Made by a program: the position numbers and the translations under genes | IMG/VR virus record: IMGVR_UViG_3300024346_000008 | Location: 99,935-163,934 of that record | DNA: 64,000 nucleotides | Reading direction: 5' to 3' (one strand) | From: a virus | Notes under the pieces: generated by a model | What the model saw: the letters and a program-made list of their open reading frames with translations, nothing else | The model's database searches: none | Told to the model about the DNA's origin: nothing | In this document: in pieces, positions 28,801-63,269 of the stretch | How the letters are laid out: the number at the start of each line of letters is the position of its first letter | Position numbering within the stretch: position 1 is the stretch's first letter

Positions 28801-29919
28801 TTTTCCTAATGACCCCGTATGTTGAATATCTACGTCAGTTGTACAATTCTCAAAGTTTAATGCAATTGCATCAATAGATGGAGCAGACCCAGTTTGTGGT
28901 GCCCAAATACCTCGTGTCCATCGTTGAAAATTAACTGCGGTTAAGCGAAGTTGTCCACCGTTATATACTTTAAATCCAGTACCCGTTGCTGTTCCGGTTG
29001 CACGAGTTAATAAACATCCATTAACAATGAACGTACAGCCCGGTGCATCGGCAAGAGCAAATATTTGGTCTTGTGAAGAACCCGCAACACCACCATTCGT
29101 AGATGTTACGTTACGAAGTTGCATACGTCCAATACCACCGTCCGAACCAGAAGTAACTTGGAATCCAACATCAAAGGATTTACTACCTTCAGTAAATCCG
29201 CCGTATTTTATATTTGAGCATTGTAGAATACAATTGCCGCTACTTCCACTTCCGATAACTTTTGCATTTGTATAATTTGTTCCAAATCGTACATTTTCTA
29301 CATAGGCAATTGCATTAGTTTGCGGCGTTGTTGGCGACGAATATACAACGGCAGAAACGTTTGGTGCAGTAGACCCTTGTATTTGCATGTCAATAACCAT
29401 TGTTTGGTCAGCCATAACAAATATACTAGCACTTGGATTGGATGCGGAAACTATAGTGGAGATGGACGAATCGCCCTTAATCGCAATATATGGTTTAAGA
29501 GTAATTGTATTTTCTATATACACACCCGGATATACTCTTACCGTATACGTGTTCGTTGCCGTTGCATCCGTGATACTATCTACTGCTGTTTTAATTGAAT
29601 TATAATTTGTATCACTTCCCGCCAATCCTACCGTTACTAAATTATCTATAAACGTAGGAGGTGCATAACTTGCAGATGTTGCGTTTGATGCTGTGCCAAA
29701 TAAATATGAGGCGGTAATATTACCTAATAAATTAATACTGCCCGTATTTGGTACATCTAATGTTACAACACTTCGTACAAATTCACCACTGCTACCAGAT
29801 TGTTTAACGAATATTTTAGCATCAGCAACATTGATAGCCAATTCCCCAACACTTAACGACGATGTTGTGGGGGCAATGTTTGATGTTAAATTTCGTTTAT
29901 GTAGTATTTTATCTGGCAT
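22828..29919 (-). CDS. Giant tail fibre/adhesin: two beta-helix parts, repeat shaft, YadA-like head and C-terminal knob
   Basis: A 2363-residue protein and the largest gene here. Domains in order: an N-terminal SLSVGELAINVADAKIFVK attachment segment; two pectin-lyase-like beta-helix regions (around TYTVRVYPGVYIENTITLKP and RYVIEVGPGEFTEKQIDMRG); a linker with YLLVNGTRAMAGTLSL; a repeat shaft of SGSF/GTSSWAS units; about 15 units of a 16-residue YadA-head-like repeat (STFIG, then AGFSAS); and a C-terminal domain (KSFKIDHQILLGKKLIYGVL, EGPEHGVYVRGRL) common in marine myovirus fibres. It would form a long trimeric fibre that binds, and perhaps cleaves, host polysaccharide. Enzymatic activity is not shown by any catalytic residue I can identify. 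Confidence 0.88.
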   Translation of the reverse strand: MPDKILHKRNLTSNIAPTTSSLSVGELAINVADAKIFVKQSGSSGEFVRSVVTLDVPNTGSINLLGNITASYLFGTASNATSASYAPPTFIDNLVTVGLAGSDTNYNSIKTAVDSITDATATNTYTVRVYPGVYIENTITLKPYIAIKGDSSISTIVSASNPSASIFVMADQTMVIDMQIQGSTAPNVSAVVYSSPTTPQTNAIAYVENVRFGTNYTNAKVIGSGSSGNCILQCSNIKYGGFTEGSKSFDVGFQVTSGSDGGIGRMQLRNVTSTNGGVAGSSQDQIFALADAPGCTFIVNGCLLTRATGTATGTGFKVYNGGQLRLTAVNFQRWTRGIWAPQTGSAPSIDAIALNFENCTTDVDIQHTGSLGKVSGTDTFLKTLIAKDAPLYEVNQDPRRITVAKKGGDFTSISASVAYITDSAENNRYVIEVGPGEFTEKQIDMRGKPYIAILGSDTQTTVIIPSGSGAFDQLILGPTNEVSFLTLKGNNVAGYSALSAPDIGQIVSSDFAQVHKISIYNYDYGVKVSANTANSTFYGEYVDINGPFSYGVYVSSSNNFSVLANVENYYLFPSSSSGIGNYVVGPSSSLSLYTGLFKGDNTAGSTAIKIEQGASFEAAALEMQNWDYGVRVPAASPAPEFRIVGSMIHNSNIYDFDVLNTSTKGRYQGVASHGKINNLSDNFFWNFLDDTDGENDITRNLAVTFADGTHTDATTLIFKGSPMGVMEDGNITTGSGFNITVASGFGYARDATDAAVYKRIDWVNGNLTLTANSNNYIYLTSTEVLTAAGSIPNNETNIILGRVVTNNTGIELIDQTPYNGEHMANKLSTFNREALGPVYAAGSTVTEDSTPFKLDVTAGTYFFSENKFTPSGTSSINLTQYYPSASTWARYTSSIVPNNLYASASVLAPLSASAYTKHTLYGVGEGIDEKYFLVINSNQYSTLVAAENANLPSIPTYFNDGVVALAAVYVQSGSANITQIQDIRPIIGFRAAGVNASSVHGNLLGLNADDHTQYLLVNGTRAMAGTLSLDGNNITNVGTMFGTASWANNAVSALNSDLLDNRDSTTYASTGSNIFVGTQIITGSVIVTGSVKASYIDIDTTAVVGGAAGRLVWNDGDGTLDLGLKGGNTTLQIGQELVARVFNAEATTLTDGTAVYISGSQGNRIAVRRASATAELGSSNTIGVVTEPILSGQEGFVTVVGVVHGLNTIGLTPGALLWLSASAGEYTQTRPEAPYHGVQIGYVERVHASAGAIYVKIDNGYELDELHDVNVAGSSYGDLLVKSGSIWINSKQLTGSYGITGSLNVTNQIIGTLIGTASWASNAISSSFATTSSFAVSALSASWAPTQATGSTTWTSLTGIPEGLVSSSVQINTGSFSGSFTGTLIGTSSWATTASFAISASWAPTMATGSTAWTSLTGIPEGLVSSSTQINTGSFSGSFVGTLTGTSSWATSASYVLPSGLPAGTVSSSGQVSYTGLSNVPANIVSSSAQVIAFLPTGTVSSSAQINTGSFTGSFIGIHSGSAFGTASWASNAISSSFATTSSYALSANVTLPAGVVSSSSQINTGSFTGSFIGIFSGSVFGTSSWASNVVSSSFATTASAATSITFTPPTASFATTAATASSFTGYINFPNGLDVSGSLYTTGSQTTVGPVVISGSLNISGSVTASNVNLVLSGTPGPNTLLVLETATNKVFSTNNITASLFGTSSWASNAISSSFATTASYALSAIATLPAGVVSSSQQFTTLSDPFTGSFTGSFKGDGTGLTGVTATTFPFVGAAVISGSLTVTGSGITVIGGGITSSLFGTSSWASNAISSSYPFAAGASSSLITANSGIGRPGISASYLGFGAGTASFDCDYSTFIGTTAARNGSYNSVYIGYQVAYDAVASNDSVMIGYLAGTQGGRNASNSNFIGSEAGAGDPGNFNNSNLLGYQAGYSASGAYNVVFIGDQAGFAARSAFNSTFVGDSAGFSASKADTSTFLGSFAGYKAISASLSTFVGASAGQNATDPYNSTFIGLRTGFSASRASNSTFIGERAGELATDATGSTFIGLRAGFGASNARYSTFLGKRAGNNAVSASYSILIGDSSGYVVNSVDSMGSNNIVVGNSIGLPRNITDSINIGGIIFATGSYNNVAVQFTGSQSPSVAKVGINIVTPNYNFDVSGSGNFSNNLTVSGSLNATNGSITASNVNLVSISNTTNANSVLVLETATGKIFTTSSIGSTFPYTGNAIITGSLTITGSNALNITGSATILGAFQATTKSFKIDHQILLGKKLIYGVLEGPEHGVYVRGRLTKNNIIQLPEEWEWLVDADSITVQLTPIGTQQILYVQNIENNTVVINSNTPIDCFYFVQATRKDVDTLQTVE
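23560..24400 (-). repeat. YadA-head-like 16-residue repeats in the giant fibre
   Basis: About 15 tandem units with the pattern S-T-F-I-G-x-x-A-G-x-x-A-S-x-A-x, each about 48 nt. Some units are near-identical in DNA (around 23770-23790 and 23870-23890). They should fold as a left-handed trimeric beta-roll. Confidence 0.8.
24480..26000 (-). repeat. Fibre repeat array B (SGSF/GTSSWAS type)
   Basis: Coding repeats in the shaft of the giant fibre, with several copies of VSSSxQINTGSFSGSFxG followed by GT(S/A)SWASNA and SSSFATTAS. Segments are nearly identical to each other and to the arrays in the neighbouring fibre genes. Confidence 0.78.
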
Positions 29920-38620: not shown

Positions 38621-38631
38621 TATAAATATCA
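38621..38631 (-). promoter_or_regulatory. Promoter-like motif opening the fibre region
   Basis: Sense TGATATTTATA, 29 nt upstream of the start at 38592 and just after the tube-gene terminator. Confidence 0.6.
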
Positions 38632-39247: not shown

Positions 39248-39258
39248 TATAAATATAA
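39248..39258 (-). promoter_or_regulatory. Promoter-like motif before the tail tube gene
   Basis: Sense TTATATTTATA, 27 nt before the start at 39221. It is followed by a ribosome site (CGGAG). Confidence 0.58.
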
Positions 39259-44785: not shown

Positions 44786-44796
44786 TATAAATATCA
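44786..44796 (-). promoter_or_regulatory. Promoter-like motif before the neck genes
   Basis: Sense TGATATTTATA, 27 nt before the start at 44759 and about 35 nt after the capsid terminator. Confidence 0.6.
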
Positions 44797-44886: not shown

Positions 44887-46515
44887 TTAGACGAGGTTGA
44901 GCTTGTCGATGTAGATCTTGCCGAAGAATTCGGGGCGAACAACCTTCTTCGCGTAACGTGTCATCACGCCACGACGAGGTGTGAAGTTCTGTGGATCGTA
45001 CACAAGTGGTGTCATGATCAATGGAATGTATGGTGCGTACACTGCGCCCGTTTCCAAGAATTGGTTACCACGGAAGCCCATCAACATCACGTTTTCTGTC
45101 ATGTATGGGTTCTTGTATACGGTGAAACGGTTCTGGAAGGAACCAATCTTCGTTACACCGGCTGCAAATTCCATCTTGTCGCCGTCGGTTCCGGCTGCAA
45201 AGCCAGGGATGGTTTCAAGAATTGTTGCAACAGTTGGTGATACGACTGCAAAGTTAGCACCGCCACGCATCGTTAATTGATGAATCTTGTTGCTCACCTT
45301 CTGCATCTTCTGACCAAGCGTTTGGAACCAAGTCATGTTGGTCCATGCCGTGCCGTAGAATGAACTTGCGGCAAATGCTCCACCACTTCCAGGTTGCTGA
45401 CCATTCCAGACTGAACCAATTTCTGCTGACCAGTATTCCGTTGTGGTTGCTGGTGCTGCATTAATTAACATGTCAAGAATTTCAAGGTCAATTTCCATTG
45501 CCACATAGTCTGACAACATACTAGTCAATTCTGCTTCTGCATCTACTGAATGGTATGCGTTCAAGTCTTGTGCAAGTTCTGGTGACCATACTGCCTTCAA
45601 CTTACGTGTCTTGGCAACAATGGTTTCCGAACGAAGTTCCAAATCAATTTCTGGAATCTGGAGGTCCGTTCCTGCATTAATACCGGCTGCTGCCGTAGTA
45701 CCACGAAGCGGATTCGTATCTTCGAAATCACCACGTGCTGTATCAACAGGTTGCTTGGTGTATGTAACACTGTTTAATACTGCGTTTGCAGTAGTAGTAA
45801 CGATAAACGTGACATTGGTTCCGTCGTACTTGGTGAATTCTGGAAGCACTGCCGAACCGAAGTTTGCGCCACTGCCACTTGGTACGAATGAACGAACTGC
45901 TAAGAAGTCAGCATTAGGTAAAACTACATTCGACACCGTGAACGAACGAAGACTACCAGTTGCAACATAATCTTGGTTGAAATTTACATCGGAAAATGCA
46001 ACCGACCCAGTAGTAACAGCTAATGACGATGTAATTTGATCATTTAATGAATAACCAAAGCGACCTGCGCCATATAGACCACCTGCTGCTTGGTTACCAA
46101 ACCCACCCCATGTACTATTTGATGCACTACCATAAAGGGATTGACCTAATGTTTGACCGTTTGATGTTGAACCATACTTGAAGTCCATGTAGAACACAAG
46201 TCCAGCAGGTAAGTTCATTGGTTGCACAGACACAAAGTTCTTTGCAGCAATTGAACCGAAGACCTTACGAACTAACGGAAGAGCAACACCGGCCCAGTTT
46301 TCACCACTGGTACCAGCTGCGTTCGTCTTACTGTTTTCTGAGAGAAGCTGTGTTGCTTGGTTTTCAAGCATTACTGCCATACCCTGCTTTTCATAGCCCT
46401 TCAATCCTTCTAGGAGGCCTGAACCTTCCCACTTACCTGCTAATTTACGGGTCTGGTCGATAACGTGCTTGTGTGCACTACCCGCTTCGTTGATAAATTC
46501 TGATACATCTGACAT
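44887..46515 (-). CDS. gp23: Major capsid protein, T4 gp23-like
   Basis: A 542-residue protein, close to T4 gp23 (521). It has ALPLVRKVFGSIAAKNFVSV and QPMNLPAGLVFYMDFKYGS, then LDLELRSETIVAKTRKLKAV (as IDLELRSETIVAKTRKLKAV), WSPELAQDLNAYHSVDAEAE and PLIMTPLVYDPQNFTPRRGV. The N-terminal about 60 residues are a likely prodomain; the LLSE at 57-60 fits the L-x-E cleavage preference of T4-type prohead proteases. The ribosome site is strong (AAGGAG). A GC-rich terminator follows, as expected for the most abundant virion protein. Confidence 0.97.
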   Translation of the reverse strand: MSDVSEFINEAGSAHKHVIDQTRKLAGKWEGSGLLEGLKGYEKQGMAVMLENQATQLLSENSKTNAAGTSGENWAGVALPLVRKVFGSIAAKNFVSVQPMNLPAGLVFYMDFKYGSTSNGQTLGQSLYGSASNSTWGGFGNQAAGGLYGAGRFGYSLNDQITSSLAVTTGSVAFSDVNFNQDYVATGSLRSFTVSNVVLPNADFLAVRSFVPSGSGANFGSAVLPEFTKYDGTNVTFIVTTTANAVLNSVTYTKQPVDTARGDFEDTNPLRGTTAAAGINAGTDLQIPEIDLELRSETIVAKTRKLKAVWSPELAQDLNAYHSVDAEAELTSMLSDYVAMEIDLEILDMLINAAPATTTEYWSAEIGSVWNGQQPGSGGAFAASSFYGTAWTNMTWFQTLGQKMQKVSNKIHQLTMRGGANFAVVSPTVATILETIPGFAAGTDGDKMEFAAGVTKIGSFQNRFTVYKNPYMTENVMLMGFRGNQFLETGAVYAPYIPLIMTPLVYDPQNFTPRRGVMTRYAKKVVRPEFFGKIYIDKLNLV

Positions 46516-48067: not shown

Positions 48068-48754
48068 TTAACTTTTTTGTTTTGGAACTAATCGTCCATT
48101 TTGTGATGTGTGTGTTACTTTCTTATTCTTACCATATCGACCAAATCCTAAATAGTCGAGTCCCAACTGCTGTGCTTGTTTTGCAATTTCACTGTCTTCT
48201 GCTGCTGGTTTTGATGTAGCTGGAGTAGATGGGGTGGTTGATGGAGTATCTGGTGCCGGATGTTCTTTTGCTTGATGTACTAGTATCTTTGCATCGGGAA
48301 ATTCTGTTCTCAGTGCTTTTACTGCTTGTACATTTTTTGGAGAATCATCAATAAAGGCAACCTTATCATATCCATCTTTTATATGTTTTCTAATATATGC
48401 CGCTTTCTTTTCTGGATTTGCATCTCCCAGTGCAGCAATAGATACACCGGAAGTAATTCCATGCATCTTTAAAAATTGTGCAACAGGACGAGTGTGACCT
48501 CGTGCGGTTAACACAGTAATTTTATCGGCTCGACCAATTGCTTGTTTTAACAGTTTGACAAATCGTTGAATTGGTTTTGGATTAATTAATTTATCAAATT
48601 CTGAGAAGTCAAACTTATCCCCTGGTTGCTCATCGTATACGGCAAATGCAGCGGGGTCCATTTCAATTCGTTTTCCGCCACGGGTAAGAAAGATTTTGGA
48701 ATCGGTCTGTGCCAATGTGTCATCAAAATCACTGACAAATAATGTTTTACCCAT
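48068..48754 (-). CDS. HAD-superfamily phosphatase
   Basis: A 228-residue protein. HAD motif I is DFDDTL with Asp9 and Asp11; motif II is TVLTARG; motif IV is AFIDDSPKNVQAV. The fold resembles the 3'-phosphatase domain of polynucleotide kinase and related nucleic-acid-end processing enzymes, but the kinase domain is absent. After a Pro/Thr-rich linker, the C-terminal LDYLGFGRYGKNKKVTHTSQ segment is a short motif common at the ends of phage virion proteins, so it may be packaged. The substrate is unknown. Confidence 0.83.
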   Translation of the reverse strand: MGKTLFVSDFDDTLAQTDSKIFLTRGGKRIEMDPAAFAVYDEQPGDKFDFSEFDKLINPKPIQRFVKLLKQAIGRADKITVLTARGHTRPVAQFLKMHGITSGVSIAALGDANPEKKAAYIRKHIKDGYDKVAFIDDSPKNVQAVKALRTEFPDAKILVHQAKEHPAPDTPSTTPSTPATSKPAAEDSEIAKQAQQLGLDYLGFGRYGKNKKVTHTSQNGRLVPKQKS

Positions 48755-48757
48755 AGA

Positions 48758-49153
48758 TTAGTAAGTTAAAACTTTATAGGATACGGCAACCATTTCATTT
48801 AATGAACTTTGTAATAATGTTTTTTTATTTTGTTCATTTAACTTATTCATTACGGTTACCAACATTTGGGCGGTAAAGACATCGACCAATTGCCCTTTTA
48901 CTTGCGCAGGAATCTTCGTGATTGCAATTTCTCGTAACGTTTCTTCCGTATATACGGGAGAATGCAAAATGGTATGCAATATTTCTTTGAGAGTATCGTG
49001 TGAGGTAGACGCGTATTTTTTTGCATCCGTAGACGATATACTCTTTGCAATCTTTTTAATTTGCGCACTTACTTTGCCAGCAGGAATTTTACCTGTTTGG
49101 TATGCGTGGACAATGCCAAATAATCGTTGTTGAGATTTGCTTTTTGATGGCAT
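48758..49153 (-). CDS. DUF3008-like small protein with C-terminal extension
   Basis: A 131-residue protein. The N-terminus PSKSKSQQRLFGIVHAYQTG followed by VSAQIKKIAKSISSTDAKKY matches the DUF3008 type found widely in T4-like phages. The C-terminal half (about residues 60-131) is helical and not part of the short family. The function is unknown. Its place beside the prohead protease suggests a prohead core or packaged protein. Confidence 0.68.
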   Translation of the reverse strand: MPSKSKSQQRLFGIVHAYQTGKIPAGKVSAQIKKIAKSISSTDAKKYASTSHDTLKEILHTILHSPVYTEETLREIAITKIPAQVKGQLVDVFTAQMLVTVMNKLNEQNKKTLLQSSLNEMVAVSYKVLTY

Positions 49154-49154
49154 G

Positions 49155-49739
49155 TTACTTTACTTCACTCAAAAAGTCGTGAATTAACTTATTGATATTA
49201 TCATATGGTGCAGCAACTTGTTGCATCACATTTTCGGTAATAAACGCACCCATTGTGGATGGATTACTGACGATATCAAAACAAATTAAGGCAAAGTCTT
49301 CTTGGACTTCTACCGTGTTTTCACTCATTTGTTTGACCGATCCCATACCACGGGAACTCACTCCGAGTTTTATATTATTTCGAATTAATTCCCGAACAAT
49401 GTTTCCTGTTGGAGTCGTGAGAATTTCAATGTTACCCCGTACATCATCACCTTCGGTCCAGAGTTCAACGATGTTACAACACACGTTCTTTAAATTCACT
49501 ACTGGACTTTCTGGGTGGTCTAGTTCACCCAGCGCTCGTCGTTGTGTCACAAAGTTTTGTTTATAGACACTTGCTTCACGCATTAAAATTTCTTTGGGAT
49601 AGACACGCCCATTTTGATTTTTTGCGTTAGCACGTTGTAATACGACATTACGAAGGATTAGTGGTTTATTACCATCTAACGCTTCCGTTAAAAGTTCTTT
49701 ATTATATTGAAGTTCTGTGTATTCACATAGTAATGCCAT
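49155..49739 (-). CDS. gp21: Prohead core serine protease, T4 gp21-like
   Basis: A 194-residue protease, close to T4 gp21 (212). It has NQNGRVYPKEIL near 41-52, the catalytic His75 in GELDHPE, the catalytic Ser in IKLGVSSRGMGS (128/129) and Asp155 in CFDIVSNPST. It digests the scaffold and trims capsid precursors, probably at L-x-E sites, during head maturation. It lies between portal-side and scaffold genes as expected. Confidence 0.95.
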   Translation of the reverse strand: MALLCEYTELQYNKELLTEALDGNKPLILRNVVLQRANAKNQNGRVYPKEILMREASVYKQNFVTQRRALGELDHPESPVVNLKNVCCNIVELWTEGDDVRGNIEILTTPTGNIVRELIRNNIKLGVSSRGMGSVKQMSENTVEVQEDFALICFDIVSNPSTMGAFITENVMQQVAAPYDNINKLIHDFLSEVK

Positions 49740-49740
49740 A

Positions 49741-50247
49741 TTAATTTCTCATGTCGCGCAAACGTGCCGCTAGTTCAGTAAGTTTACCTTCCAACTTGAC
49801 CATTTGTGTAGTCGTGCGTTTCCATAAATTATCATTAGATAATCCAGATTCTTTCTTTAAACGACTGTTCATTTTTAAGGCACGTTCAACCAACTTCAAT
49901 TGTCTATTTAATTCAGACATTGCTTGACCAATTTTTTGATGTGGTTGACGAGTTTGATCGTTACGGTAGGAATAATAATTCTCTTGTAATGTTTTTACGC
50001 CTTCTTGAATTGCTTCAAATTTTTCTTGAAGTTTATCGCCCGGCGTAACATCTTTTGCACCACGATTGGTCAAGGAATATCCAATAGATTTTGCCATTTT
50101 TTTAATATGATTTGCATTACTATGTTTGTCCCCGACAAATGCATTAGGTGTTAAATATCCCGCAACGTTTCCGGTTGTTGATATTTCATTTAAATTTTCA
50201 CGGATATGTTTACGAATAATTTCACGTAATCTCTCTTCAATATTCAT
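49741..50247 (-). CDS. Helical protein, probable prohead core component
   Basis: A 168-residue protein, mostly helical (ERLREIIRKHIRENLNEIST, then QKIGQAMSELNRQLKLVERA). The ATG follows the previous stop by 3 nt and the protease start follows its own stop by 1 nt. I recognise no family. Because it is squeezed between portal-adjacent and protease genes, a prohead core or assembly role is plausible. Confidence 0.65.
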   Translation of the reverse strand: MNIEERLREIIRKHIRENLNEISTTGNVAGYLTPNAFVGDKHSNANHIKKMAKSIGYSLTNRGAKDVTPGDKLQEKFEAIQEGVKTLQENYYSYRNDQTRQPHQKIGQAMSELNRQLKLVERALKMNSRLKKESGLSNDNLWKRTTTQMVKLEGKLTELAARLRDMRN

Positions 50248-50250
50248 GGT

Positions 50251-51129
50251 TTATCTCAGTGAATTAAGTTCGTGTGAAATCTGATATGCAATCAATAACG
50301 CCGTGATATAGTTATCTTTCACTTGATTCTTTTGCTGAATCTGTTGTAGTTGATGTACTACTTCATTGACTTTAATCTTCGTGACTTCATCAGTAATTTT
50401 ATTAGAATTCTTTTTAATATCACGAATTAAACTGATGGCTTCTGTGGACACATATGTACCAAACTTTTCTACGTTCGTTCCATTATTAATATATTCACGA
50501 AGTAAATTCTTTTGTTTATCACTGAAATTACTGTACTTTTCATTGAAACTTTCTAACAAGAATTTATAGGAAAGATACCGAATTTCTTCTGGTTGATCTT
50601 TTAACATTGCCGAATAATTTGATTCTTTGACAATTTGTTCTTCTTTCAGTTCACCCTTTAAATGTTCAACAATCACAAATCGTGCGGCAACCATTTCGTC
50701 AATTTGCATATATACCGATTCGTCAATATTTGACGCACTGGTTGTTTCAAATAATTTGTAAATGGATGCGTGAACTTTATAGGAAGGAACTCGACCAGAC
50801 ATAAATTGTTTCAAATCACAATTCTGCTTAATTTCTCGTATCAATAGAAATTTTTGTGCATTTAGTAATTTTTCATTTAATGATGCCCGTCGTTGTAATA
50901 CGACATCTAACATATTAAATGCTTTACCTTCTGAGAGTTTCGGTGCATTAAAGAAAGAACGATACAATTGTAATTCTTTTCCTAATTCCGATTTTGAGTG
51001 GAAATGTTCACGCATCATTTTGACTGCAAAACTATCTGGTTTGCCGTCGAGAACATCTGCGGCAACTTTTCTGACTAATAGTTCAAACAGAATGCCTGTG
51101 TTCTTAATTTTGTTGTGCCGTATATTCAT
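50251..51129 (-). CDS. Unknown conserved protein between portal and protease
   Basis: A 292-residue, helical, basic protein: MNIRHNKIKNTGILFELLVR, then KVAADVLDGKPDSFAVKMMR, LQRRASLNEKLLNAQKFLLI and EIRYLSYKFLLESFNEKYSN. It resembles unnamed proteins at this position in marine myoviruses. No catalytic motif seen. Probably a prohead or injected internal protein. Confidence 0.65.
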   Translation of the reverse strand: MNIRHNKIKNTGILFELLVRKVAADVLDGKPDSFAVKMMREHFHSKSELGKELQLYRSFFNAPKLSEGKAFNMLDVVLQRRASLNEKLLNAQKFLLIREIKQNCDLKQFMSGRVPSYKVHASIYKLFETTSASNIDESVYMQIDEMVAARFVIVEHLKGELKEEQIVKESNYSAMLKDQPEEIRYLSYKFLLESFNEKYSNFSDKQKNLLREYINNGTNVEKFGTYVSTEAISLIRDIKKNSNKITDEVTKIKVNEVVHQLQQIQQKNQVKDNYITALLIAYQISHELNSLR

Positions 51130-51191: not shown

Positions 51192-53075
51192 TTAATCCTC
51201 TACTTTATCGTCAGATGACAACTGTTCTGCAATAATTTGTTTGTATTTACTAGTATTTTTCATTTGTAATTTATCTAAGAAATCTTTTGCTTCTAACGAT
51301 AAGGTAGACCGCTTGTACCGTTTGGTATTTTCTTTATGTCCTAATGGGTCACGGCCAAGCGGATGTGCATCAGTACCAAATTTTAATCCTTCTCTTGGAC
51401 GACCACCTCTATTTTTCATAAGTGCTTCTTCTAGTTCCTCATCAACTTCTTCGTCAACAGAACTGTCTTCTAGACTCTGTAAAATTTGATCTACATCGTC
51501 AATTTGAGCTTCTTGATCGTCTGCACTAACATCTCCTTCCGGCGGAACTTCCCCTTCTGGTGGTACTCCTCCTTCTGGTGGCATTCCACCCATTTGTGGG
51601 TCTTGAGGTTGTGCCATTGCTTGTTGTTCTTGCTGCCGTTTTACATCTTCGATAATCTTCTTTCGTTCTTCAACAATTTCATCATCTGATAATTCAAGAA
51701 TGTGATTGTAGACCCAATCTTGAGAAAGAAGAATAGTTTGTCCACCGGTCATTTGTTGCGCCAATCCAAACTTTTCTTTCCAGATATTAATTTTTTCTTG
51801 TTCGTATAATGTGGAAGGATTCGTTAACGAGAGTTCAAAGTTGACGAGTTTTTCATCCGTAAATCCTTGGACATATAAATGAATGATGGCAATCTTGGTA
51901 AGTTCCGATACCATGATGCGTTGAATACGTTCAATAGTTCGTGCAAATCGCACATCTTGTGCTGCCAATGTTGCCTTTCCATTAATATCTTCTTCATATC
52001 CAATAAAGGACTTAGGTACTTTAAATGCCGCAAGAAGTTTTTTACGGAGATATTCAATGTCTTCGATTGCATTGAATTGTAATCCTTGCATGGTTTCAAT
52101 TTCGGTTCCACTATCCTTACCACGCACTGGAAGATAGAAATCTTCGGTAATATTCATCATATTATATCGAAGATTATAATCGCCCGTTTTCGGGTCTACC
52201 AACGGCGTTTTCTTGGAACGGTCAATGATACGATTCATATATGTATCAACTTCGGCGGGAGGAATGTTGCCAATATCAATTTTGAACTTCCGTTTGTCGG
52301 GTGCTCTCATGATACGATGAATTAACATTGCGTCTTCCATGAGTTGCAATTGTTTCCAGACACGACGACCACCTTCAATCATGGCTTTTCCATACGGAAG
52401 AAAGTTTGTATCTGATAATAAACGAAAATGTGCAATTTCGTAGTTATCAAAATCTTTCTTACCTAATTGTAAGAAATCGGTATCAATGGAGAATCTTACG
52501 GAGAATGGATTGCCCGGTTGTTCACCTTCGACACGAATAGTTTCATAGACAGATAATGGAACGGCATTTACGATACCATATTCAGGATCAATGTCCAGAT
52601 ATAAAAATAAATCTCCGTATTTTGCCATGTTGCGCACCCACGGCCAGAGATTAAATTCTACATTGAGAATATCGTAAAATAAATTATGGAGAATTTCTTG
52701 AACTTGTGTATCATCGGTTTTAATCGTGAGAATGCGGTCAAACTCATCCTTGACTGTACTTTCATCCGCATAAATATCTAATACTGACGCAATGATGGGG
52801 TCATTGTCCATCATGTCATAATCACGGAACAACTGTAATCGTGCTCCTTGGAATGAAGCTGCCGCTTCATACCGACCATGTGCTGACCCATATCCACCTG
52901 TGGCAGAATTATATACACGATGGTACCGATCAACACCTCGTCTGTTAACAAACGATTGAATTTGATCCGTATCTGCAATACGAAGTTTTTTTCCACCCAC
53001 ATTTCGTACAATTGTGTTCGTGGAAAAAAGTTTCTTTAGTCTACCAAAAATTCCATTGTTACTAGTATCTGCCAT
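51192..53075 (-). CDS. gp20: Portal protein, T4 gp20-like
   Basis: A 627-residue portal (T4 gp20 is 524). Conserved parts include DPIIASVLDIYADESTVKDE near residue 90-110, WPWVRNMAKYGDLFLYLDID, APDKRKFKIDIGNIPPAEVD, DFYLPVRGKDSGTEIETMQG and FKVPKSFIGYEEDINGKATL. The last about 140 residues are a low-complexity tail rich in Pro, Glu, Gly and Asp (MPPEGGVPPEGEVPPEGD), then a basic GRPREGLKFGTDAHP segment. It forms the dodecameric ring for DNA entry and exit and binds terminase. Strong ribosome site (GAGGAG). Confidence 0.95.
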   Translation of the reverse strand: MADTSNNGIFGRLKKLFSTNTIVRNVGGKKLRIADTDQIQSFVNRRGVDRYHRVYNSATGGYGSAHGRYEAAASFQGARLQLFRDYDMMDNDPIIASVLDIYADESTVKDEFDRILTIKTDDTQVQEILHNLFYDILNVEFNLWPWVRNMAKYGDLFLYLDIDPEYGIVNAVPLSVYETIRVEGEQPGNPFSVRFSIDTDFLQLGKKDFDNYEIAHFRLLSDTNFLPYGKAMIEGGRRVWKQLQLMEDAMLIHRIMRAPDKRKFKIDIGNIPPAEVDTYMNRIIDRSKKTPLVDPKTGDYNLRYNMMNITEDFYLPVRGKDSGTEIETMQGLQFNAIEDIEYLRKKLLAAFKVPKSFIGYEEDINGKATLAAQDVRFARTIERIQRIMVSELTKIAIIHLYVQGFTDEKLVNFELSLTNPSTLYEQEKINIWKEKFGLAQQMTGGQTILLSQDWVYNHILELSDDEIVEERKKIIEDVKRQQEQQAMAQPQDPQMGGMPPEGGVPPEGEVPPEGDVSADDQEAQIDDVDQILQSLEDSSVDEEVDEELEEALMKNRGGRPREGLKFGTDAHPLGRDPLGHKENTKRYKRSTLSLEAKDFLDKLQMKNTSKYKQIIAEQLSSDDKVED

Positions 53076-53085
53076 ATCTCCTCAC

Positions 53086-53421
53086 TTAATAGTTACAGGC
53101 TTCGTCTAATGCTTTTAATAATGGTCCGAAATCTACATCCTTTTTACTTTTTGCAATTTCTACCACTTCATTTCGTAATTCATTCAATTTTACATATGTG
53201 GCGGCAATTAATAACTGCCATTCATTTATATTAAACTTTGTATATGGTAATGAGTTTAAATTAGTTGCCATCATACTTACTTCAGCAAAGCATTCAACCA
53301 ATGATTTTGATTGTGTTGCTGATAATTGTCCTACTACTTTTTCTATGAGAGCAGTAAGTCGCATTAAATTGATACGATTTTCTACATTTTCACGAAGTAT
53401 TGATTTTAATGAAAGTGCCAT
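53086..53421 (-). CDS. Small helical protein, unknown
   Basis: A 111-residue protein, helical: LKSILRENVENRINLMRLTA, LIEKVVGQLSATQSKSLVEC, YTKFNINEWQLLIAATYVKL. Good ribosome site (AAGGAG). It lies directly upstream of the portal gene. No family recognised. Confidence 0.65.
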   Translation of the reverse strand: MALSLKSILRENVENRINLMRLTALIEKVVGQLSATQSKSLVECFAEVSMMATNLNSLPYTKFNINEWQLLIAATYVKLNELRNEVVEIAKSKKDVDFGPLLKALDEACNY

Positions 53422-53846: not shown

Positions 53847-54413
53847 TTACCATTTACGGCAGCTCCAGTAGCGTGCACTGGTTCTATCTTTTGCGGTAGC
53901 ACATTTATGTCGTGCCCGAAAACTTTTACGACGAGCAGGATTACTCTTTTTAATTCTCATGTTCGGATCACCAAAATTAACTTTCTTGACATTTCCAGTA
54001 CTTGGGTCTTTCACAAACACTTTGAATTTTTTCACATCGCCCCGCATAGGTTTGCCAATTGATACTTTACGACCATGATATTCTGCTTCCTCAAGAACAT
54101 TTTCGTGTGCTAACATGTATTCTGCAAGACACGCAGAACAATATTCGTCTATTGTATCCATTTCTTCGGCTTCTTTGATAGGAACACAATTAGGAACTTG
54201 TTTCCCATTCTTATCTTTCATACCATATTGTGTGTATCCATCCCAACACGGTGCTTTTTCATTTAGTCCAACAGAATCGTCGGTAAATCTTCCCGTCAAT
54301 GTTTTATGTGGATCTGCTTTTGGATTAGATACGGCATCATATTTATCAAAGTCAGGTTGTGGTGCACTGAAATTATCATTGCCGTATTCATTGAAAAAAT
54401 CTGTATATTTCAT
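53847..54413 (-). CDS. Conserved phage protein with Cys pairs and basic C-terminus
   Basis: A 188-residue protein: an N-terminal KAPCWDGYTQYGMKDKNGKQ with VPNCVP, then EYCSACLAEYM, then YHGRKVSIGKPMRGDVKKFK, VNFGDPNMRIKKSNPARRKS and FRARHKCATAKDRTSARYWS ending CRKW. This C-terminal region recurs in many T4-type phage proteins and looks nucleic-acid-binding. The Cys residues could bind zinc. Unknown role, possibly virion-associated. Confidence 0.72.
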   Translation of the reverse strand: MKYTDFFNEYGNDNFSAPQPDFDKYDAVSNPKADPHKTLTGRFTDDSVGLNEKAPCWDGYTQYGMKDKNGKQVPNCVPIKEAEEMDTIDEYCSACLAEYMLAHENVLEEAEYHGRKVSIGKPMRGDVKKFKVFVKDPSTGNVKKVNFGDPNMRIKKSNPARRKSFRARHKCATAKDRTSARYWSCRKW

Positions 54414-55804: not shown

Positions 55805-55815
55805 TATAAATATAA
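55805..55815 (-). promoter_or_regulatory. Promoter-like motif before the portal unit
   Basis: Sense TTATATTTATA, 33 nt upstream of the start at 55772. Confidence 0.55.
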
Positions 55816-55838: not shown

Positions 55839-57422
55839 TTATCCAATCAACCATCGAATATCTTCAGTTTCCGAGTTCCCAATTTGTATTTGATAAGGGT
55901 CAACTGGCATATCATTGGGTAGATTACCTCGTTTCATAAATGGAGTGCTGGAATAATCAGTGTGCGTGAGTGCCAATTTGGTTAATTCAATGCCCTGTTG
56001 ACGTAACCGCAGTGCGGTATCACGAACCCACAATCCAATACCCAACGCCATTACTAAGTCGTCATTATATCCACTTAATGCTTCTGCACGGCCGTTTTTC
56101 CAAATAAACGTTTCTAATTCTGCTAATGTTCTGGAAGATCGAATCGTAATTGACGTTTCCCGCATATATTCTTCTAGTTTGGCAATGATTAGTGGTCTGG
56201 TTCGTTGTGAAATGACGAATCCTGCCACCAAATTGCGTTCACTCTTATAGGATTGCTGATGTTCTACGTCAATATACTGCATATCCTTAGACATATAAAA
56301 TAAATTTCTATATCCACGGTCAATTACTTGCTGCACCGAACTCCATCCAATCGAACTGTTGTCTGGAATCAATAATGCGTCATTATATTCTGTTGCCAGC
56401 GATACCATAAGGTTACCAAACTCCTTGGTGGGAATTTTACCCTTATATTCGGCTACTTGAATAGAACGTTCTGCGTCAATGATATGAATGGTGGAATAGT
56501 CCTCACCATCACCTCTTGCAACGTCTGCAGCAGCAATATAGGTTCTACCCGCATCAGGATATTCCCATATCCACAGATTTCCGTCAAACCCTTGCTTAGA
56601 AATGGGTTCTGTCACATAGGTTTTCTTATAAAATTCTAATATTTGTGGGTTGACAACCGTATTACCCGAGAAAATAAAGGATGCATCGTGTTCTTGGGAC
56701 GATTGCATCTCACCCATCATTTCAGTTTGACGGTCACGCCACGCTTGGTCACGTTCTGGATGGACTTTCCAATCTAACAGAATGGGATTGAAACTATTTG
56801 ACTTAGTTTCTGCTTGTTGCCACATTTTATGGAAGAAATTACCCACGCCGTTCGGCGTTGATAGCAATATGGCTTTACCACCCGTAGATAGAGTAGACGA
56901 TGCGGCGGTCCAGATGATATCTGCATCATCGATGAACGCGGCTTCGTCCAGAATCAATAAAGACAGTGCTTCAGAACGACCCGCATCCTTACTACTTGCT
57001 ACAGCCTTAATTTGTGACCCGTTGGCAAATTGTAATGATAATTTGTTATCGGTTGTGCAGGTACCCCGTAACCACACGGGCAAATTTGCGTGCATAAATC
57101 GCACTTTGGTGACAAGATTTTTTGCCGTTTCTTGCTTGGTGGCAATAACAAGGATGTTTTTGTCACGATGGAACAATAATAACCACAGTGCATATCCGGC
57201 CACCAATGTAGAAATACCAATCTGTCTACCTTTTAAGACAATATTATTATCGTGCTCGTCGAAATCACGAATGGCATCTTTCTGATACTTGTATAACTCA
57301 AATAATACCTTTCCCCGAATGGGATGTTGGATATATGAGTATTTACTGAGAAAGTATTCTGGACTTACCGCACATTTTTTGTATTCTTGTTTGATAAGGT
57401 CTTTTAAATTTGGTTGCGTCAT
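55839..57422 (-). CDS. gp17: Terminase large subunit, T4 gp17-like
   Basis: A 527-residue packaging motor (T4 gp17 is 610). The ATPase has Walker A-like LKGRQIGIST at 63-72, Walker B LLILDEAAF at 155-163, and the coupling motif STPNG at 188-192. The RNase-H-like nuclease has AAADVARGDGEDYS at 297-310 (Asp300), LLIPDNSSIG near 350-359 (Asp354) and DDL at 454-456. It pumps DNA through the portal and cuts concatemers. No small terminase subunit is evident in the window. Confidence 0.95.
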   Translation of the reverse strand: MTQPNLKDLIKQEYKKCAVSPEYFLSKYSYIQHPIRGKVLFELYKYQKDAIRDFDEHDNNIVLKGRQIGISTLVAGYALWLLLFHRDKNILVIATKQETAKNLVTKVRFMHANLPVWLRGTCTTDNKLSLQFANGSQIKAVASSKDAGRSEALSLLILDEAAFIDDADIIWTAASSTLSTGGKAILLSTPNGVGNFFHKMWQQAETKSNSFNPILLDWKVHPERDQAWRDRQTEMMGEMQSSQEHDASFIFSGNTVVNPQILEFYKKTYVTEPISKQGFDGNLWIWEYPDAGRTYIAAADVARGDGEDYSTIHIIDAERSIQVAEYKGKIPTKEFGNLMVSLATEYNDALLIPDNSSIGWSSVQQVIDRGYRNLFYMSKDMQYIDVEHQQSYKSERNLVAGFVISQRTRPLIIAKLEEYMRETSITIRSSRTLAELETFIWKNGRAEALSGYNDDLVMALGIGLWVRDTALRLRQQGIELTKLALTHTDYSSTPFMKRGNLPNDMPVDPYQIQIGNSETEDIRWLIG

Positions 57423-58706: not shown

Positions 58707-61700
58707 TTAATCTGTTCTGTTTTTAGGAATACCCGCACGATTGGATATTCCACGCATGTGTTGACGAATAACACCCATTGCTACTTTATGAGCTGGATGT
58801 AATCTGTCATAATCCATTGCGGTATCAATCTTAATTTGATTGCCCGTTTCTGGATTTGTAATTTTCATTTGTAATATTTTTTTAAAGAGATCTTTTTTGC
58901 CACCCTTTGGTTTGTCTTTTGGTGCATCTGCAGATGTTGTTGGTACCGATCCGACCATTGGTGCCCCATACTGTAACACTTTTACGGGCATCGTGTGTCG
59001 TAATGCTGCTAACGCAGACAATCGTGTGTTACCACCCAATAAATAATATCCATTAGAGTGTTTTATCACAATTGGCTCCGGTAATTTTTCCTGTTGTTTT
59101 ATTGCCGTCAATATACCCTTTACATCTTTTTTATATTCTGTACCAATTTTTTTAAGAACTTCCTTTGGATTTTTACTAGATAATACTTCTGGAACTTCAC
59201 TATTTGATAGTTGCTCCAACTCGTCTTTTGTCAAGACTTCACTGGGTGCTGCCAAAATTAATTTCTTTAATTCTTCTGCAGAATCAGCCATGTCAGGAAA
59301 CGATTCAATAGTTCGTTCGTTTTTAAAATATTCACCAACTTCGTTGTCTAATTCATCCTTAGTATAATCTCGTACATATACATAGACCTTTAATTTTTCA
59401 GACTTAGTATTTTCGGTTAGTATGGATTCATTTGCATTCATTGCATCTTGTACCATTTTTTCTGCTGCTTTTCTAACCGGCTCGTTCTCTGGATATTTTA
59501 AGGCCGTTGCCACTAAGATATCACGATTAGTTTTTGGATTACGAACCTTGTTACCCAATACGGATTTTGCGCGACCAATTGCTGTTGCATCGGGTTTTTT
59601 CTTTCCCCGCTTTTTTGTTGCTGGTTCTTCTTGACTTGCGTGCATATCCGTCAACTTGCGTGCTTCTTCTGCGTCGGTTGTTGTTTTAATAATTTTCTTA
59701 AATATTTTTGGATCAAACTTACCATACACTTTCGTAAAGATTTCTTGTTTTGCTCTATCGGTAATATTTGGGTCACCCATAATAGCACGTAGTTGAGTTC
59801 CACTGATATTTTTCCCATCGATATCTAATTTCATCTCTGGTGCTACGATAAAATATCCTTTGTCTTTATATCCTTTGTGCTCCCCATCTGGTACATCATC
59901 AAAATTACGGAAGTACTTTCCACCGCCCAATCGATCAGCATCTTTTTGACTGACTGCCGTCACATACGAAGTTTCAGGAGGAAGTTTATCTAAAATTTCT
60001 ACTGGTGCATATGGATTTCTAACCTGCACCACCATCTCGTCGGGAATGTCAAACATACGAGTCATAATATCTTTCTTTTCCTTAAATCCAAATGGAGATT
60101 TAATAGGATCTGTCACATTACTGGACGCAATGTATACATTTTCTTTACCAAACTTCTTCACCATTGCTTCATAAATACTATAATGACCCGCATGAAATGG
60201 TTGAAAACGACCAGTGAATATTGCCACCGTGCGTTTTGGTACAGACGGTTCAGTTGGTGTTGATGGTTCCATTGAGGTAGGTGAAGTCGTTTCACCCGGC
60301 AAATTATATGTTGCTTCATATTCTTTTTTAGCCACTCGATAATATCCTTCACCATCTTTCACCAAATAGTCACCGGGCTTTAATACCATTTGTTCTCCCC
60401 ACGGTGCGGTGAAGGTTACTTCATCTTTGCCTGTATATCGTGCCACTTGTCTTGGAGATTGTTCTGGGATTACGGTACCGTCATCTTGTTTAGCATATAA
60501 CTTCTCAAATTTTGCTGCTTTTACTACATATTTTTCTCCGCTGGGACCGGACATAATAATATCACCTGGCGCTGCGGTATTTTCTGTTTCTTTGCCGTCT
60601 GCTGTAATGGTTACCACCTTCATCTCAGATGTAGCGGTGGCAAACGTCATCGGTTCCATGTCTTCTAAGGCAGAACTATCTTCAACTTCCCCGTGATTAG
60701 AATATTTTACAGGTTTCTTTGTAACGGGTTTAAATTGTAATTTATCGGTAACAGATTTAATATCCGTTGGTTCTTCTGGTTCCTCTGATTCCGGTGGAGT
60801 CATACCAAACTTAAAGGTACCGGTAATTTGATTGATGGGCGCAAACTGTCCGGTGAACTTATATGGTTTCCCGTTGTAAATAAATACGACACCTTCGGAT
60901 GGGACTATATTATCTATGCCCATTGCTTCCAATCGTTCTAATTCCCGCTGTAGTTTACCAATTTTATCAGGTTGATTACTATCACGAATGGCTTTAATTG
61001 CTTCTAAGACATCTCGTTTTAATTGATTACTTGCTTCTGGGTTATTAACGGATAGAAAGTTGGTAACTCGACGCAAAGAATCTGTTCCTGCCTGTAAAAA
61101 TGTCATTTCGATAGGATTGATCATTTTCTTTTGTGCAGCAGCCAATGATTCTTTTTCATATTGCCTAAACCATTTCTTGGTTTCATCGTTTTCTATATTT
61201 TTTACACCAAACTTCTTGTCACCATCTGCCCACCGACGAACTAACCCATCAAACTCATCTTCGGATAACTCCATACCCGTTCGTTCCATTTCTTTTTGAA
61301 TTTCCTGTTCCCACCATGCACGACGATAGTCTGCCAATGTTGAATTTTCGTCCAATCCAAACTCTTGTGCAGTCCGATCCAATCGTCCATTATATTGTTC
61401 TGCCTTTTGTTGATATCGTTCTGTTTCCGCATCACTAAAGGCAATTGTTTTTGGTCCGCTAATACCAAACGTTTGTTGTTTATCTGCCCCAACTGCAGTC
61501 ACCGCATCGGCAAATTCCTTGCCATCAGTATTAGAACGTCCAATTTCATTACCATCTTCGTCATATTCAATGGTGCCATGCATGACCAACACACTTTTTC
61601 CATACGGGATAACATTTTGGGTGTCGGGGAGGATAACTTCTAAGCTCATGAACTTTGAACCGTCTCCGAACATTTGCTGGCGTTGCTCCGGTGTCAATTT

Positions 61701-63233
61701 TTCTACTGCTGCTTGTAAATCTTCTGCTGCCCCAGTAAATGCCTTTTCAATATTGCCACGACCTGCAAACATATTCCGAATACCTGCGGTGTCCAGTGCG
61801 TTTTTTCCACGATTTTTTACCTGTCCTTTATTACGAGCAAATACAATCTGGCCGTCACGTATTGAGAAGGCAATGTTCTGACCGTCTAGTTTTTCGGTGA
61901 CCGGCGCTTCTTGATCCAATCCACCGAGTAACCCACGGTCAATCATTTCCTTCATATCTTTGAAGGTAAGTTCTTCATCTTCAAATGGATGTGCAAGGTG
62001 TCCTGCTGCACCGCCTTCCATAAGATATCTGCCCGTTTCATTCCAGCACTTATGACATACAAATGGGTGTTTGCCACCGTCGTTTGCATTCCACGCCCAT
62101 CCGCAGACTCGACATTTAATTGTATTTTCTGAAATATAGATGCTATTATCTACCTTACCGTAATCACGAAGGAGAATGCCCGCAATAATGTTGGCGTTAT
62201 TTTCAATACGTGACCCCGTGGCGCCATCAATTTCGGGATTTGTAATATATCCCATCTCATTTTGCTTTTGATGTGCCATTTCGTGCGCAACGGTTCGTAA
62301 AATATCGGCAAGTAATCTATCTTCGACAACCACAAAGATTTGATTAGAAATTACATCATATTTGCCCAAACTTGTTAGGCTATCGTCTGCTGGCATCAAT
62401 GAAACAACGGGAGTTTGTTGTAAATTTAATCGAACTGCGGCATATGTAACAAATTGTTGTACATCCATTGCAATGCCGTCCGGAGAATAGCATTCTTTCA
62501 CTTTATCTCGCCCGTGGTCTTTCTTTGCAAGCTTCCATGACCCGCCATGTGGGCCCTTTGGATGATGTACGTCATGATTTTTCATTTTACTCTTGCCATG
62601 TTTCTTAACTGCCTTACGACGGTCGCGGTTGCGCGCAACTCTATCGTGAACGGTATCCTTTAAATACTTGCTTACCTTTTTAGGATGCCGTTTATAATAT
62701 CGTCTAACACGCTCGGTACTACTATCTGCTTCATCAACGGTATCAGTTGCCTCGTACTCATCGTCGTCACGGTGCATGCCCGATTCATCGTCGGCATACT
62801 TTAATAATAAGGGTTTTTTAAGGATGGGCAAGTTGCTATTATATGCACCCACCAACCCCGATAGCGGATAATCTATACCTTCCCCTACCTCACCCTCCGA
62901 TAACCCCGTAGAGGTCAAACTGGGGTCCGCTAGACCCCTATCCGATGACACTGCGTAGGTCATCAACATAGGATAATGGTGAGCACCGTATTTAAATGCT
63001 ATTTTACATTTATCACGAATTGTTGCCACGCTATCCGTTGGGGATATAGTATACGATTCATCTAATTTCATAGATAAAATTAAATTATTATAATTCTTGT
63101 GCAATTCGGTTAGTGCTTTAGCTGCCACAAATTTAATATCCGTGGATACTTCGTGTTGTAATGTATACCGAAGTGCGGCACAACGTTGTGCATTATCTAT
63201 TGGCAATAAAAGGTTTTTATGTAAAATGTCCAC
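58707..63233 (-). CDS. 1508-residue multidomain protein: HExxH, zinc ribbon, ligase-like, HxGH nucleotidyltransferase, ParB-like
   Basis: GTG start at 63233 (ribosome site GGGAG). Domains: an N-terminal part with a His-rich NHDVHHPKGPHGGSWK (219-234); a metallopeptidase-like region with HEMAH at 317-321; a zinc ribbon (Cys374, 377, 393, 396); a ligase-superfamily-like domain with KLDG at 448-451 (candidate adenylated Lys448), SLEVILP at 530-536 and EGVVF at 780-784 with a following KPYKFTG; a cytidylyl/adenylyltransferase with GRFQPFHAGH at 1008-1017 and ISGTQLR at 1143-1149; and a ParB-like GGNTRLSAL at 1400-1408. Two related 40-residue segments (about 1229 and 1457) end NPxT-containing units. 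The ligase-like part resembles the DUF6267 type of T4-like phages. The combined function is unknown. Confidence 0.85.
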   Translation of the reverse strand: MDILHKNLLLPIDNAQRCAALRYTLQHEVSTDIKFVAAKALTELHKNYNNLILSMKLDESYTISPTDSVATIRDKCKIAFKYGAHHYPMLMTYAVSSDRGLADPSLTSTGLSEGEVGEGIDYPLSGLVGAYNSNLPILKKPLLLKYADDESGMHRDDDEYEATDTVDEADSSTERVRRYYKRHPKKVSKYLKDTVHDRVARNRDRRKAVKKHGKSKMKNHDVHHPKGPHGGSWKLAKKDHGRDKVKECYSPDGIAMDVQQFVTYAAVRLNLQQTPVVSLMPADDSLTSLGKYDVISNQIFVVVEDRLLADILRTVAHEMAHQKQNEMGYITNPEIDGATGSRIENNANIIAGILLRDYGKVDNSIYISENTIKCRVCGWAWNANDGGKHPFVCHKCWNETGRYLMEGGAAGHLAHPFEDEELTFKDMKEMIDRGLLGGLDQEAPVTEKLDGQNIAFSIRDGQIVFARNKGQVKNRGKNALDTAGIRNMFAGRGNIEKAFTGAAEDLQAAVEKLTPEQRQQMFGDGSKFMSLEVILPDTQNVIPYGKSVLVMHGTIEYDEDGNEIGRSNTDGKEFADAVTAVGADKQQTFGISGPKTIAFSDAETERYQQKAEQYNGRLDRTAQEFGLDENSTLADYRRAWWEQEIQKEMERTGMELSEDEFDGLVRRWADGDKKFGVKNIENDETKKWFRQYEKESLAAAQKKMINPIEMTFLQAGTDSLRRVTNFLSVNNPEASNQLKRDVLEAIKAIRDSNQPDKIGKLQRELERLEAMGIDNIVPSEGVVFIYNGKPYKFTGQFAPINQITGTFKFGMTPPESEEPEEPTDIKSVTDKLQFKPVTKKPVKYSNHGEVEDSSALEDMEPMTFATATSEMKVVTITADGKETENTAAPGDIIMSGPSGEKYVVKAAKFEKLYAKQDDGTVIPEQSPRQVARYTGKDEVTFTAPWGEQMVLKPGDYLVKDGEGYYRVAKKEYEATYNLPGETTSPTSMEPSTPTEPSVPKRTVAIFTGRFQPFHAGHYSIYEAMVKKFGKENVYIASSNVTDPIKSPFGFKEKKDIMTRMFDIPDEMVVQVRNPYAPVEILDKLPPETSYVTAVSQKDADRLGGGKYFRNFDDVPDGEHKGYKDKGYFIVAPEMKLDIDGKNISGTQLRAIMGDPNITDRAKQEIFTKVYGKFDPKIFKKIIKTTTDAEEARKLTDMHASQEEPATKKRGKKKPDATAIGRAKSVLGNKVRNPKTNRDILVATALKYPENEPVRKAAEKMVQDAMNANESILTENTKSEKLKVYVYVRDYTKDELDNEVGEYFKNERTIESFPDMADSAEELKKLILAAPSEVLTKDELEQLSNSEVPEVLSSKNPKEVLKKIGTEYKKDVKGILTAIKQQEKLPEPIVIKHSNGYYLLGGNTRLSALAALRHTMPVKVLQYGAPMVGSVPTTSADAPKDKPKGGKKDLFKKILQMKITNPETGNQIKIDTAMDYDRLHPAHKVAMGVIRQHMRGISNRAGIPKNRTD

Positions 63234-63258
63234 AAATTCTCCCAGTTAATCTTATTCT

Positions 63259-63269
63259 TATAAATATCA
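63259..63269 (-). promoter_or_regulatory. Promoter-like motif before the 1508-residue gene
   Basis: Sense TGATATTTATA, 26 nt upstream of the GTG start at 63233. Best match to the recurring motif. Confidence 0.6.

Follow-up and report, generated by a model that had tools for sequence, protein, structure and literature searches.

A 1508-residue phage polyprotein joins an RNA-ligase-like and an NMN-adenylyltransferase-like domain and is probably packaged in the phage head

What would a phage gain from one protein that bears the signatures of several unrelated enzymes? The question is raised by a 1508-residue frame in a 64,000-nucleotide stretch of DNA from a T4-like phage (hereafter the window), which comprises positions 99,935 to 163,934, the end of the 163,934-base IMG/VR record IMGVR_UViG_3300024346_000008. 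The original prediction, made from the letters of the window, had listed protease-like, ligase-like, nucleotidyltransferase and ParB-like motifs in this frame. Our comparison with related loci (L003 and so on) favors the following answer, which we hold with a probability of roughly 0.55: the frame encodes an effector polyprotein that is packaged in the head and trimmed by a protease, and its core of RNA ligase and nicotinamide mononucleotide (NMN) adenylyltransferase (NMNAT) restores RNA and nicotinamide adenine dinucleotide (NAD) early in infection. The coordinates of all features are compiled in Table 1.

The frame is real and is kept at full length by purifying selection. Relatives of the same 1508 residues are 92, 83 and 81% identical to it, and the ratio of nonsynonymous to synonymous substitution rates (dN/dS) is 0.08-0.11 for the whole open reading frame (ORF), low in each module in which it is measurable and lowest in modules C and D (0.03). 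An assembly artefact that joined separate genes, a possibility named in the original prediction, is therefore ruled out. All motifs listed there were found in the frame: HEMAH (residues 317-321), the cysteine pairs C374/C377 and C393/C396, EKLDGQN with Lys448, EGVV (780-783), Lys792 within YKFTG, GRFQPFHAGH (1008-1017), SGTQLR (1144-1149) and GGNTRLSAL (1400-1408). Three features had escaped the original prediction: a basic module with VHHPKG (157-249), the PGDYG domain (885-976) and a tail motif present in two copies.

Within this chain, modules C and E form a fixed core. In an alignment of 38 relatives of module C, the lysine of KLDG, the glutamate of motif III, the EG of motif IV and the lysine of motif V are invariant, which bears out the predicted motifs of a ligase-type covalent nucleotidyltransferase. 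Their order is that of T4 RNA ligase 1 (Rnl1), with which the module also has the motif III pattern ExxxPxxNxIxxY in common; it differs from Rnl1 by a helical insert (about 190 residues) that separates motif III from motif IV, by a threonine in place of the second motif V lysine and by a conserved N-terminal GHxxHPxED. Weak matches to Pfam RNA_ligase, all below the cut-off, occurred in 29 of the 38 members (best 0.0033). Compared with nine phage Rnl1 proteins, the profile of module C covered motifs I to III with the catalytic residues in register (E-value 1.6e-4). In hhalign, the match to Rnl1 reached E-values of 1.2e-4 to 1.7e-4 at a probability of about 50%, controls with unrelated modules or with reversed profiles gave 0.24-0.62, and the score of 21.2 for the Rnl1 match compares to a best score of 13.6 among column-shuffled controls (n = 30, same settings). 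LigA was rejected as the nearest family, as its match covered motif I only (E-value 0.002-0.006), versus 1.2e-4 over the whole domain for Rnl1. A direct profile search of the PDB with module C returned chance coiled-coil matches only, and a single-sequence hhalign comparison to T4 Rnl2 was weak. The AlphaFold model that includes module C has a mean predicted local distance difference test (pLDDT) score of 72.5. The assignment of module C as an Rnl1-type ligase-like domain thus has good but not decisive support: the expected ligase fold is seen at the level of motifs and profiles, whereas the structure model matches the T4 RNA ligases weakly.

The assignment of module E is clearer. Its profile matched the NMN adenylyltransferase MJ0541 (6.4e-8) and NadM (4.7e-7) in the PDB, the best Foldseek match of its model (pLDDT 83.5) was bifunctional NadM (4.4e-5), and the active-site signatures GRFQPxHxGH and ISGTxxR are both intact on the HIGH fold. 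Of the cytidylyl- or adenylyltransferase that had been predicted next to the ligase-like part, the HxGH fold, the adjacency and the adenylyl option stand; the cytidylyl option is rejected, the best matches by sequence and structure being NMN adenylyltransferases. Module E would be expected to use NMN. It resembles NadM in signatures and fold and differs by its fusion to a ligase-like module and by the lack of NadV in the genome. No Nudix domain was found in the protein. NadV was absent from the window's genome and from nine of ten related records (some of them fragments), and psbA was absent from the window's genome, so no host or salvage partner can be read from these genes. Every phage with NadM is reported to carry NadV as well (PMC9503650); since NadV is missing here, module E would work in a setting other than the usual phage NAD salvage pair.

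Both modules occur in one chain in 114 of the 117 complete frames that contain module C. Module C comes first in the window's group, module E in ocean phages, in one huge phage and in Mel-JY01, a cultured Microcystis phage with a 639-aa protein that has the NMNAT-like and the ligase-like module. Two of the three exceptions are broken frames (L077, L128). The third is a natural split of the kind that the original prediction had proposed to look for: in a 462-kb phage (L003), the ligase-like and the NMNAT-like module are encoded by adjacent genes (5956-7218 and 7253-9211). In distant members of about 30% identity (L171, L172) an HxGH domain still follows module C, and one locus (L082) has kept module E without C. 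The family is large and almost uncultured. Module C was found in more than 540 viral contigs, yet of 50,697 phage records only three contain it, namely the isolate Mel-JY01 and two huge phages from metagenomes; a comparison with five T4-like marine isolates and T4 gave no convincing match, in contrast to Mel-JY01. A 1079-aa relative (L107, 877-4113) has two NMNAT-like domains flanking the ligase-like module.

The near-obligate pairing, in either order and also as split neighbors, may alternatively reflect a coupled machine, in which the ligase-like module takes adenosine monophosphate (AMP) from NAD and releases NMN, which the fused NMNAT then recharges to NAD. Motif V of module C is in line with this idea, as aligned members read K-(F/L/Y)-T (YKFTG in the window protein) where Rnl1 has KIK, KYK, KVK or KLK, and one lysine, in (Y/F)KF(P), is also what most NAD-dependent LigA proteins of E. 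coli and phages have there. An NMNAT outside the usual salvage pair (PMC9503650), with NadV absent in 10 of 11 records, would fit as well. However, over its whole domain module C is nearer to Rnl1 than to LigA, no LigA domain Ia is recognizable in it, and the likeness in motif V concerns a few residues. We know of no NAD-dependent RNA ligase, and the literature searched contained no virion-borne one of any kind. We regard such coupling as unlikely, at about one chance in five, and the step beyond it, an injected, self-recharging, NAD-fed RNA ligase in which repair of RNA and of NAD would be a single virion-delivered reaction cycle, as somewhat less likely again.

Is the polyprotein carried by the virion? 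Its gene precedes those for terminase, portal, protease and capsid on the same strand. The motif TATTTATA upstream of it looks like the late promoter of the phage: the window contains 13 copies on the gene strand versus one on the other, 8 of these 13 are intergenic at an intergenic share of 3.6%, and five are located 26-33 nt before the starts of late genes (minus-strand copies include 63259-63266, 55805-55812, 44786-44793, 39248-39255 and 38621-38628). As the raw count is mildly above chance (14 versus 8.8 expected), it is this placement that serves as evidence. The promoter-like motif attributed earlier to this gene has accordingly held up, and through it the polyprotein would be expressed late, together with head and tail proteins. 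A further long ORF of the late region encodes 2363 aa (22828-29919).

The second line of evidence concerns head maturation. The T4 protease gp21 cleaves after L/I-X-E (PMC9026906). In the window's genome, proteins of the head cluster top the ranking by [L/I]xE density (53850-54413, 49744-50247, 50254-51129 and others), so the gp21-type protease of this phage (49155-49739) probably has a T4-like specificity, and these proteins are likely its head-core or scaffold substrates. Further [L/I]xE-rich proteins of the cluster, also likely substrates, are encoded at 53089-53421 and 48761-49153. Among the relatives of the polyprotein, which are not independent, so that kinship inflates the enrichments, an [L/I]xE site occurs within 25 aa before module C in 48 of 55 non-redundant members (25.5 expected), within 35 aa before module F in 8 of 9 (3.1 expected) and in the first 26 residues in 34 of 48 (16.6 expected); inside modules C and E such sites are depleted (131 versus 227 expected). 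Ocean members have the leader MDKLTEFLxKPFLxE in common despite their different first modules. Cyanophage T4-GC190 proteins, annotated as cytidyltransferase and related to module E through PHROG 395, were detected by mass spectrometry in purified S-SM1 virions (PMC3037559), and a cytidyltransferase was also detected in virions of S-CREM2 (PMC10665884); the N-terminus of the P-SSM2 protein, MKSFSQFLTE, is a T4-like leader. The T4-GC190 proteins are HxGH nucleotidyltransferases of T4-like phages as well; in them the ligase module was not detected, and their gene is situated between or near gp41 and gp61, not beside terminase. Based on the promoter motif, the site pattern, the leader in relatives and the cyanophage virions, the window protein is probably packaged in the head and injected, as the original prediction had considered. 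Support for its packaging is good, though indirect. Some 5 kb past the match, L036, L042, L046 and other loci encode a further candidate for packaging, a conserved protein (about 110 aa) that has a leader (DLLVEVSIDLDEKYKTKGSLGKWLRQKWVDISRKD) and [L/I]xE sites early in its sequence.

The same evidence bears on a second alternative, namely that the protein is a cytoplasmic enzyme for RNA repair and NAD salvage that is made late and merely happens to be encoded in the late region. Both enzymes would work without packaging, and the literature searched does not describe phage Rnl1 or NadM, where these stand alone, as effectors that are injected. Against this stand the late promoter motif, the [L/I]xE pattern, the common leader and the virion detection of the cyanophage homologues, and we consider a purely cytoplasmic role improbable to about the same degree as the coupling of both modules through NAD.

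Around its fixed core, the polyprotein is a mosaic of exchangeable modules. Module B (residues 250-398) consists of the HEMAH metallopeptidase domain followed by a zinc ribbon. In Foldseek, the former matched PprI/IrrE and minigluzincins (probability 0.97-1.0, E-value 0.03-0.25), it matched phage IrrE-like proteins at 1.1e-7, and its HEXXH lies in a zincin fold, as in gluzincins. The Foldseek matches also included a 591-aa protein of S-PM2. The original prediction had this part process the chain. Because most relatives, including most of those with the same layout, lack the zincin, it is disfavored as the main processor, and candidate head-protease sites lie at the module borders. PprI/IrrE-type enzymes act on host regulators; the zincin could do so too, or could trim the chain. 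Module F has a conserved GGNTRLSAL, weak matches to ParB-type profiles and a model confidence of about 90 over most of its length; Pfam searches with modules A and F gave no convincing match. The second copy of the tail motif lies at the C-terminus (residues about 1455-1500), as if module F had extended a chain that once ended with the first copy.

Relatives contain further modules. Among ocean members, L113 and L159 have a P-loop kinase in the same chain, L140 has an HD domain, and a 1442-aa protein (L134, 706-5031) combines a CCA-adding-type nucleotidyltransferase (head 6.6e-30), an RNA-binding region, an HD domain and the NMNAT-like and ligase-like modules. Kinase, CCA-adding and HD modules are typical RNA end-healing enzymes, and these fusions therefore point to repair. 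The HAD-type phosphatase of the head cluster (48068-48754) is a possible end-healing partner. Its C-terminal LGLDYLGFGRYG... tail resembles a LGLEGDGHGGWYDR stretch near the N-terminus of the P-SSM2 T4-GC190 protein. In L148 (1450-5058), a Zn_protease (PF05618) domain occupies the place where other relatives have different modules.

The end-healing fusions also help to judge a third alternative, according to which the protein would transfer nucleotides onto host RNA or protein (capping, AMPylation or NAD-type capping) without any repair. KxDG is common to the superfamily of ligases and capping enzymes. T4 Alt and ModB are packaged or phage-made modifiers that use NAD (PMC9503650). As the fusions point to repair and the nearest family is Rnl1, we rate a modifying effector as rather improbable, slightly below the two alternatives of the coupled and of the cytoplasmic enzyme. 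A purely structural role, as scaffold or in tail assembly, of a protein whose enzyme domains are dead, suggested by the place among structural genes, the large size and the annotation of phage Rnl1 homologues as catalysts of tail-fiber attachment, is very unlikely given that the catalytic residues of both cores are kept in nearly all members and that dN/dS is so low in modules C and D.

We thus return to the packaged repair effector. In this scenario, the chain would be made late and built into the prohead, where the gp21-type protease would trim it between modules, cutting at a small number of [L/I]-x-E sites, and the trimmed modules would be ejected with the DNA into the new host. There, the ligase, via covalent AMP on Lys448, would seal RNAs, most likely transfer RNAs (tRNAs) cut by host defense ribonucleases, while the NMNAT would rebuild NAD from NMN and adenosine triphosphate (ATP) and so counter NAD-depleting defenses. 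RNA and NAD would be repaired at once, ahead of phage transcription, and the exchangeable modules (here zincin, PGDYG and ParB-like, elsewhere in the family a kinase or a CCA-adding domain) would add end-healing and other take-over functions. Such activities have precedents, as phage RNA ligases counter tRNA cleavage and phage NadM rebuilds NAD (PMC7824862; PMC9503650). Several observations weigh against this reading. Foldseek with the model of zincin and ligase gave no PDB match below 0.001, T4 Rnl1 and Rnl2 recurring weakly among the top matches. As the aligned members of module C lack the second motif V lysine of Rnl1, ATP-dependent ligation is not assured. The window protein has no kinase module, an [L/I]xE leader is absent from its first 40 residues, such sites are not enriched in it overall (11 versus 14 expected), and its genome lacks NadV. 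Finally, about one fifth of the relatives have LLLMGGA instead of LLxEGGA, so part of this motif may be domain structure.

Among known systems, the protein is most like the polyvalent proteins (Iyer et al. 2017, PMC5512222), which are long chains of many domains encoded close to late genes, combine disparate enzymes, zincin and ParB-like domains, and are considered virion-borne and injected. Here, too, several unrelated enzymatic domains per chain are shuffled among relatives near virion genes. The combination once called unfamiliar can hence be placed as a polyvalent-protein-like effector; its core of RNA ligase and NMNAT was absent from the published surveys in the literature searched, PMC5512222 treating RNA ligases as separate phage proteins only. 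Moreover, the likely main processor of this chain is the head protease, acting at [L/I]xE, and not the zincin within it. T4 Alt and the internal proteins IPI-III, which the window protein would resemble, are late, head-packaged, cleaved by gp21 at [L/I]-X-E behind an N-terminal leader and ejected (PMC9026906); the window protein differs as a multi-enzyme chain with internal candidate sites and no clear short leader, and no ADP-ribosyltransferase domain, as in Alt, was found in it. With the phage Pnkp/Rnl1 repair pair it has the logic of end healing and sealing in common, here in one late, probably packaged chain joined to an NMNAT.

Table 1 Features of the polyprotein gene and of its late-gene surroundings (window coordinates; residues refer to the polyprotein; arrows mark the predicted cut)
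Feature	Coordinates	Strand	Details
Gene of 1508-aa polyprotein	58707..63233	-	GTG start at 63233, stop 58707-58709; full-length relatives L004, L011, L014
Ribosome-binding site GGGAG	63239..63243	-	5 nt upstream of GTG; from sequence
Late-promoter-like TATTTATA	63259..63266	-	26 nt before start codon
Variable N-terminal region, residues 1-156	62766..63233	-	BLAST map of relatives
Module A, residues 157-249	62487..62765	-	Basic STERVRRYY...NRDRRKAVKKHG...DVHHPKG; position differs among relatives
Gluzincin-type metallopeptidase domain, residues 250-366	62136..62486	-	HEMAH 317-321; AlphaFold model of 247-830
Candidate head-protease site ISE↓N, 367-369	62127..62135	-	Zincin/zinc-ribbon border; LSE/FLSE/YLSE in relatives there
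Zinc ribbon CxxC...CxxC, residues 374-396	62046..62114	-	Sequence
Candidate head-protease site LME↓GG, 404-406	62016..62024	-	Before module C; [L/I]xE there in 41/55 non-redundant relatives
Module C, Rnl1-type RNA-ligase-like nucleotidyltransferase, residues 404/407-812	60798..62015	-	Lys448, Glu532, Glu780, Lys792
Helical insert between ligase motifs III and IV, residues about 585-774 (~190)	60912..61481	-	AlphaFold secondary structure
Module D, PGDYG domain (PF14083), residues 885-976	60306..60581	-	Optional among relatives
Module E, NadM-type NMN-adenylyltransferase-like domain, residues 999-1199	59637..60239	-	GRFQPFHAGH, SGTQLR
First copy of tail motif NPxTG...TALxY, residues 1225-1266	59436..59561	-	Profile F match 1.1e-5
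Candidate head-protease site LTE↓N, 1272-1274	59412..59420	-	Between NMNAT-like and ParB-like modules
Module F, ParB-like domain, residues 1290-1508	58710..59366	-	GGNTRLSAL; ends in second tail motif
Terminase large subunit	55839..57422	-	phrog_2, 8.5e-48
Portal protein	51192..53075	-	phrog_213, 9.2e-69
gp21-type head maturation protease, probable processor	49155..49739	-	phrog_207, 1.5e-51
HAD-type phosphatase in head cluster	48068..48754	-	VSDFDDT; polynucleotide-kinase family; phrog_415, 6.6e-9
Major capsid protein, T4-like	44887..46515	-	phrog_138, 2.7e-69

As far as the searched literature shows, the core of ligase and NMNAT, the ligase subfamily and the probable processing by a head protease are new. 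That phages inject a few effectors, and that they produce RNA ligases and NAD-rebuilding enzymes once they have infected a cell, was already known. A chain that unites the two enzymes and is packaged would act before phage genes are expressed, when tRNA-cutting and NAD-depleting defenses strike. The change in motif V raises the question of which cofactor, ATP or NAD, charges Lys448. With so many viral contigs set against one isolate and two huge phages, something common in the biology of aquatic phages has gone almost unnoticed.

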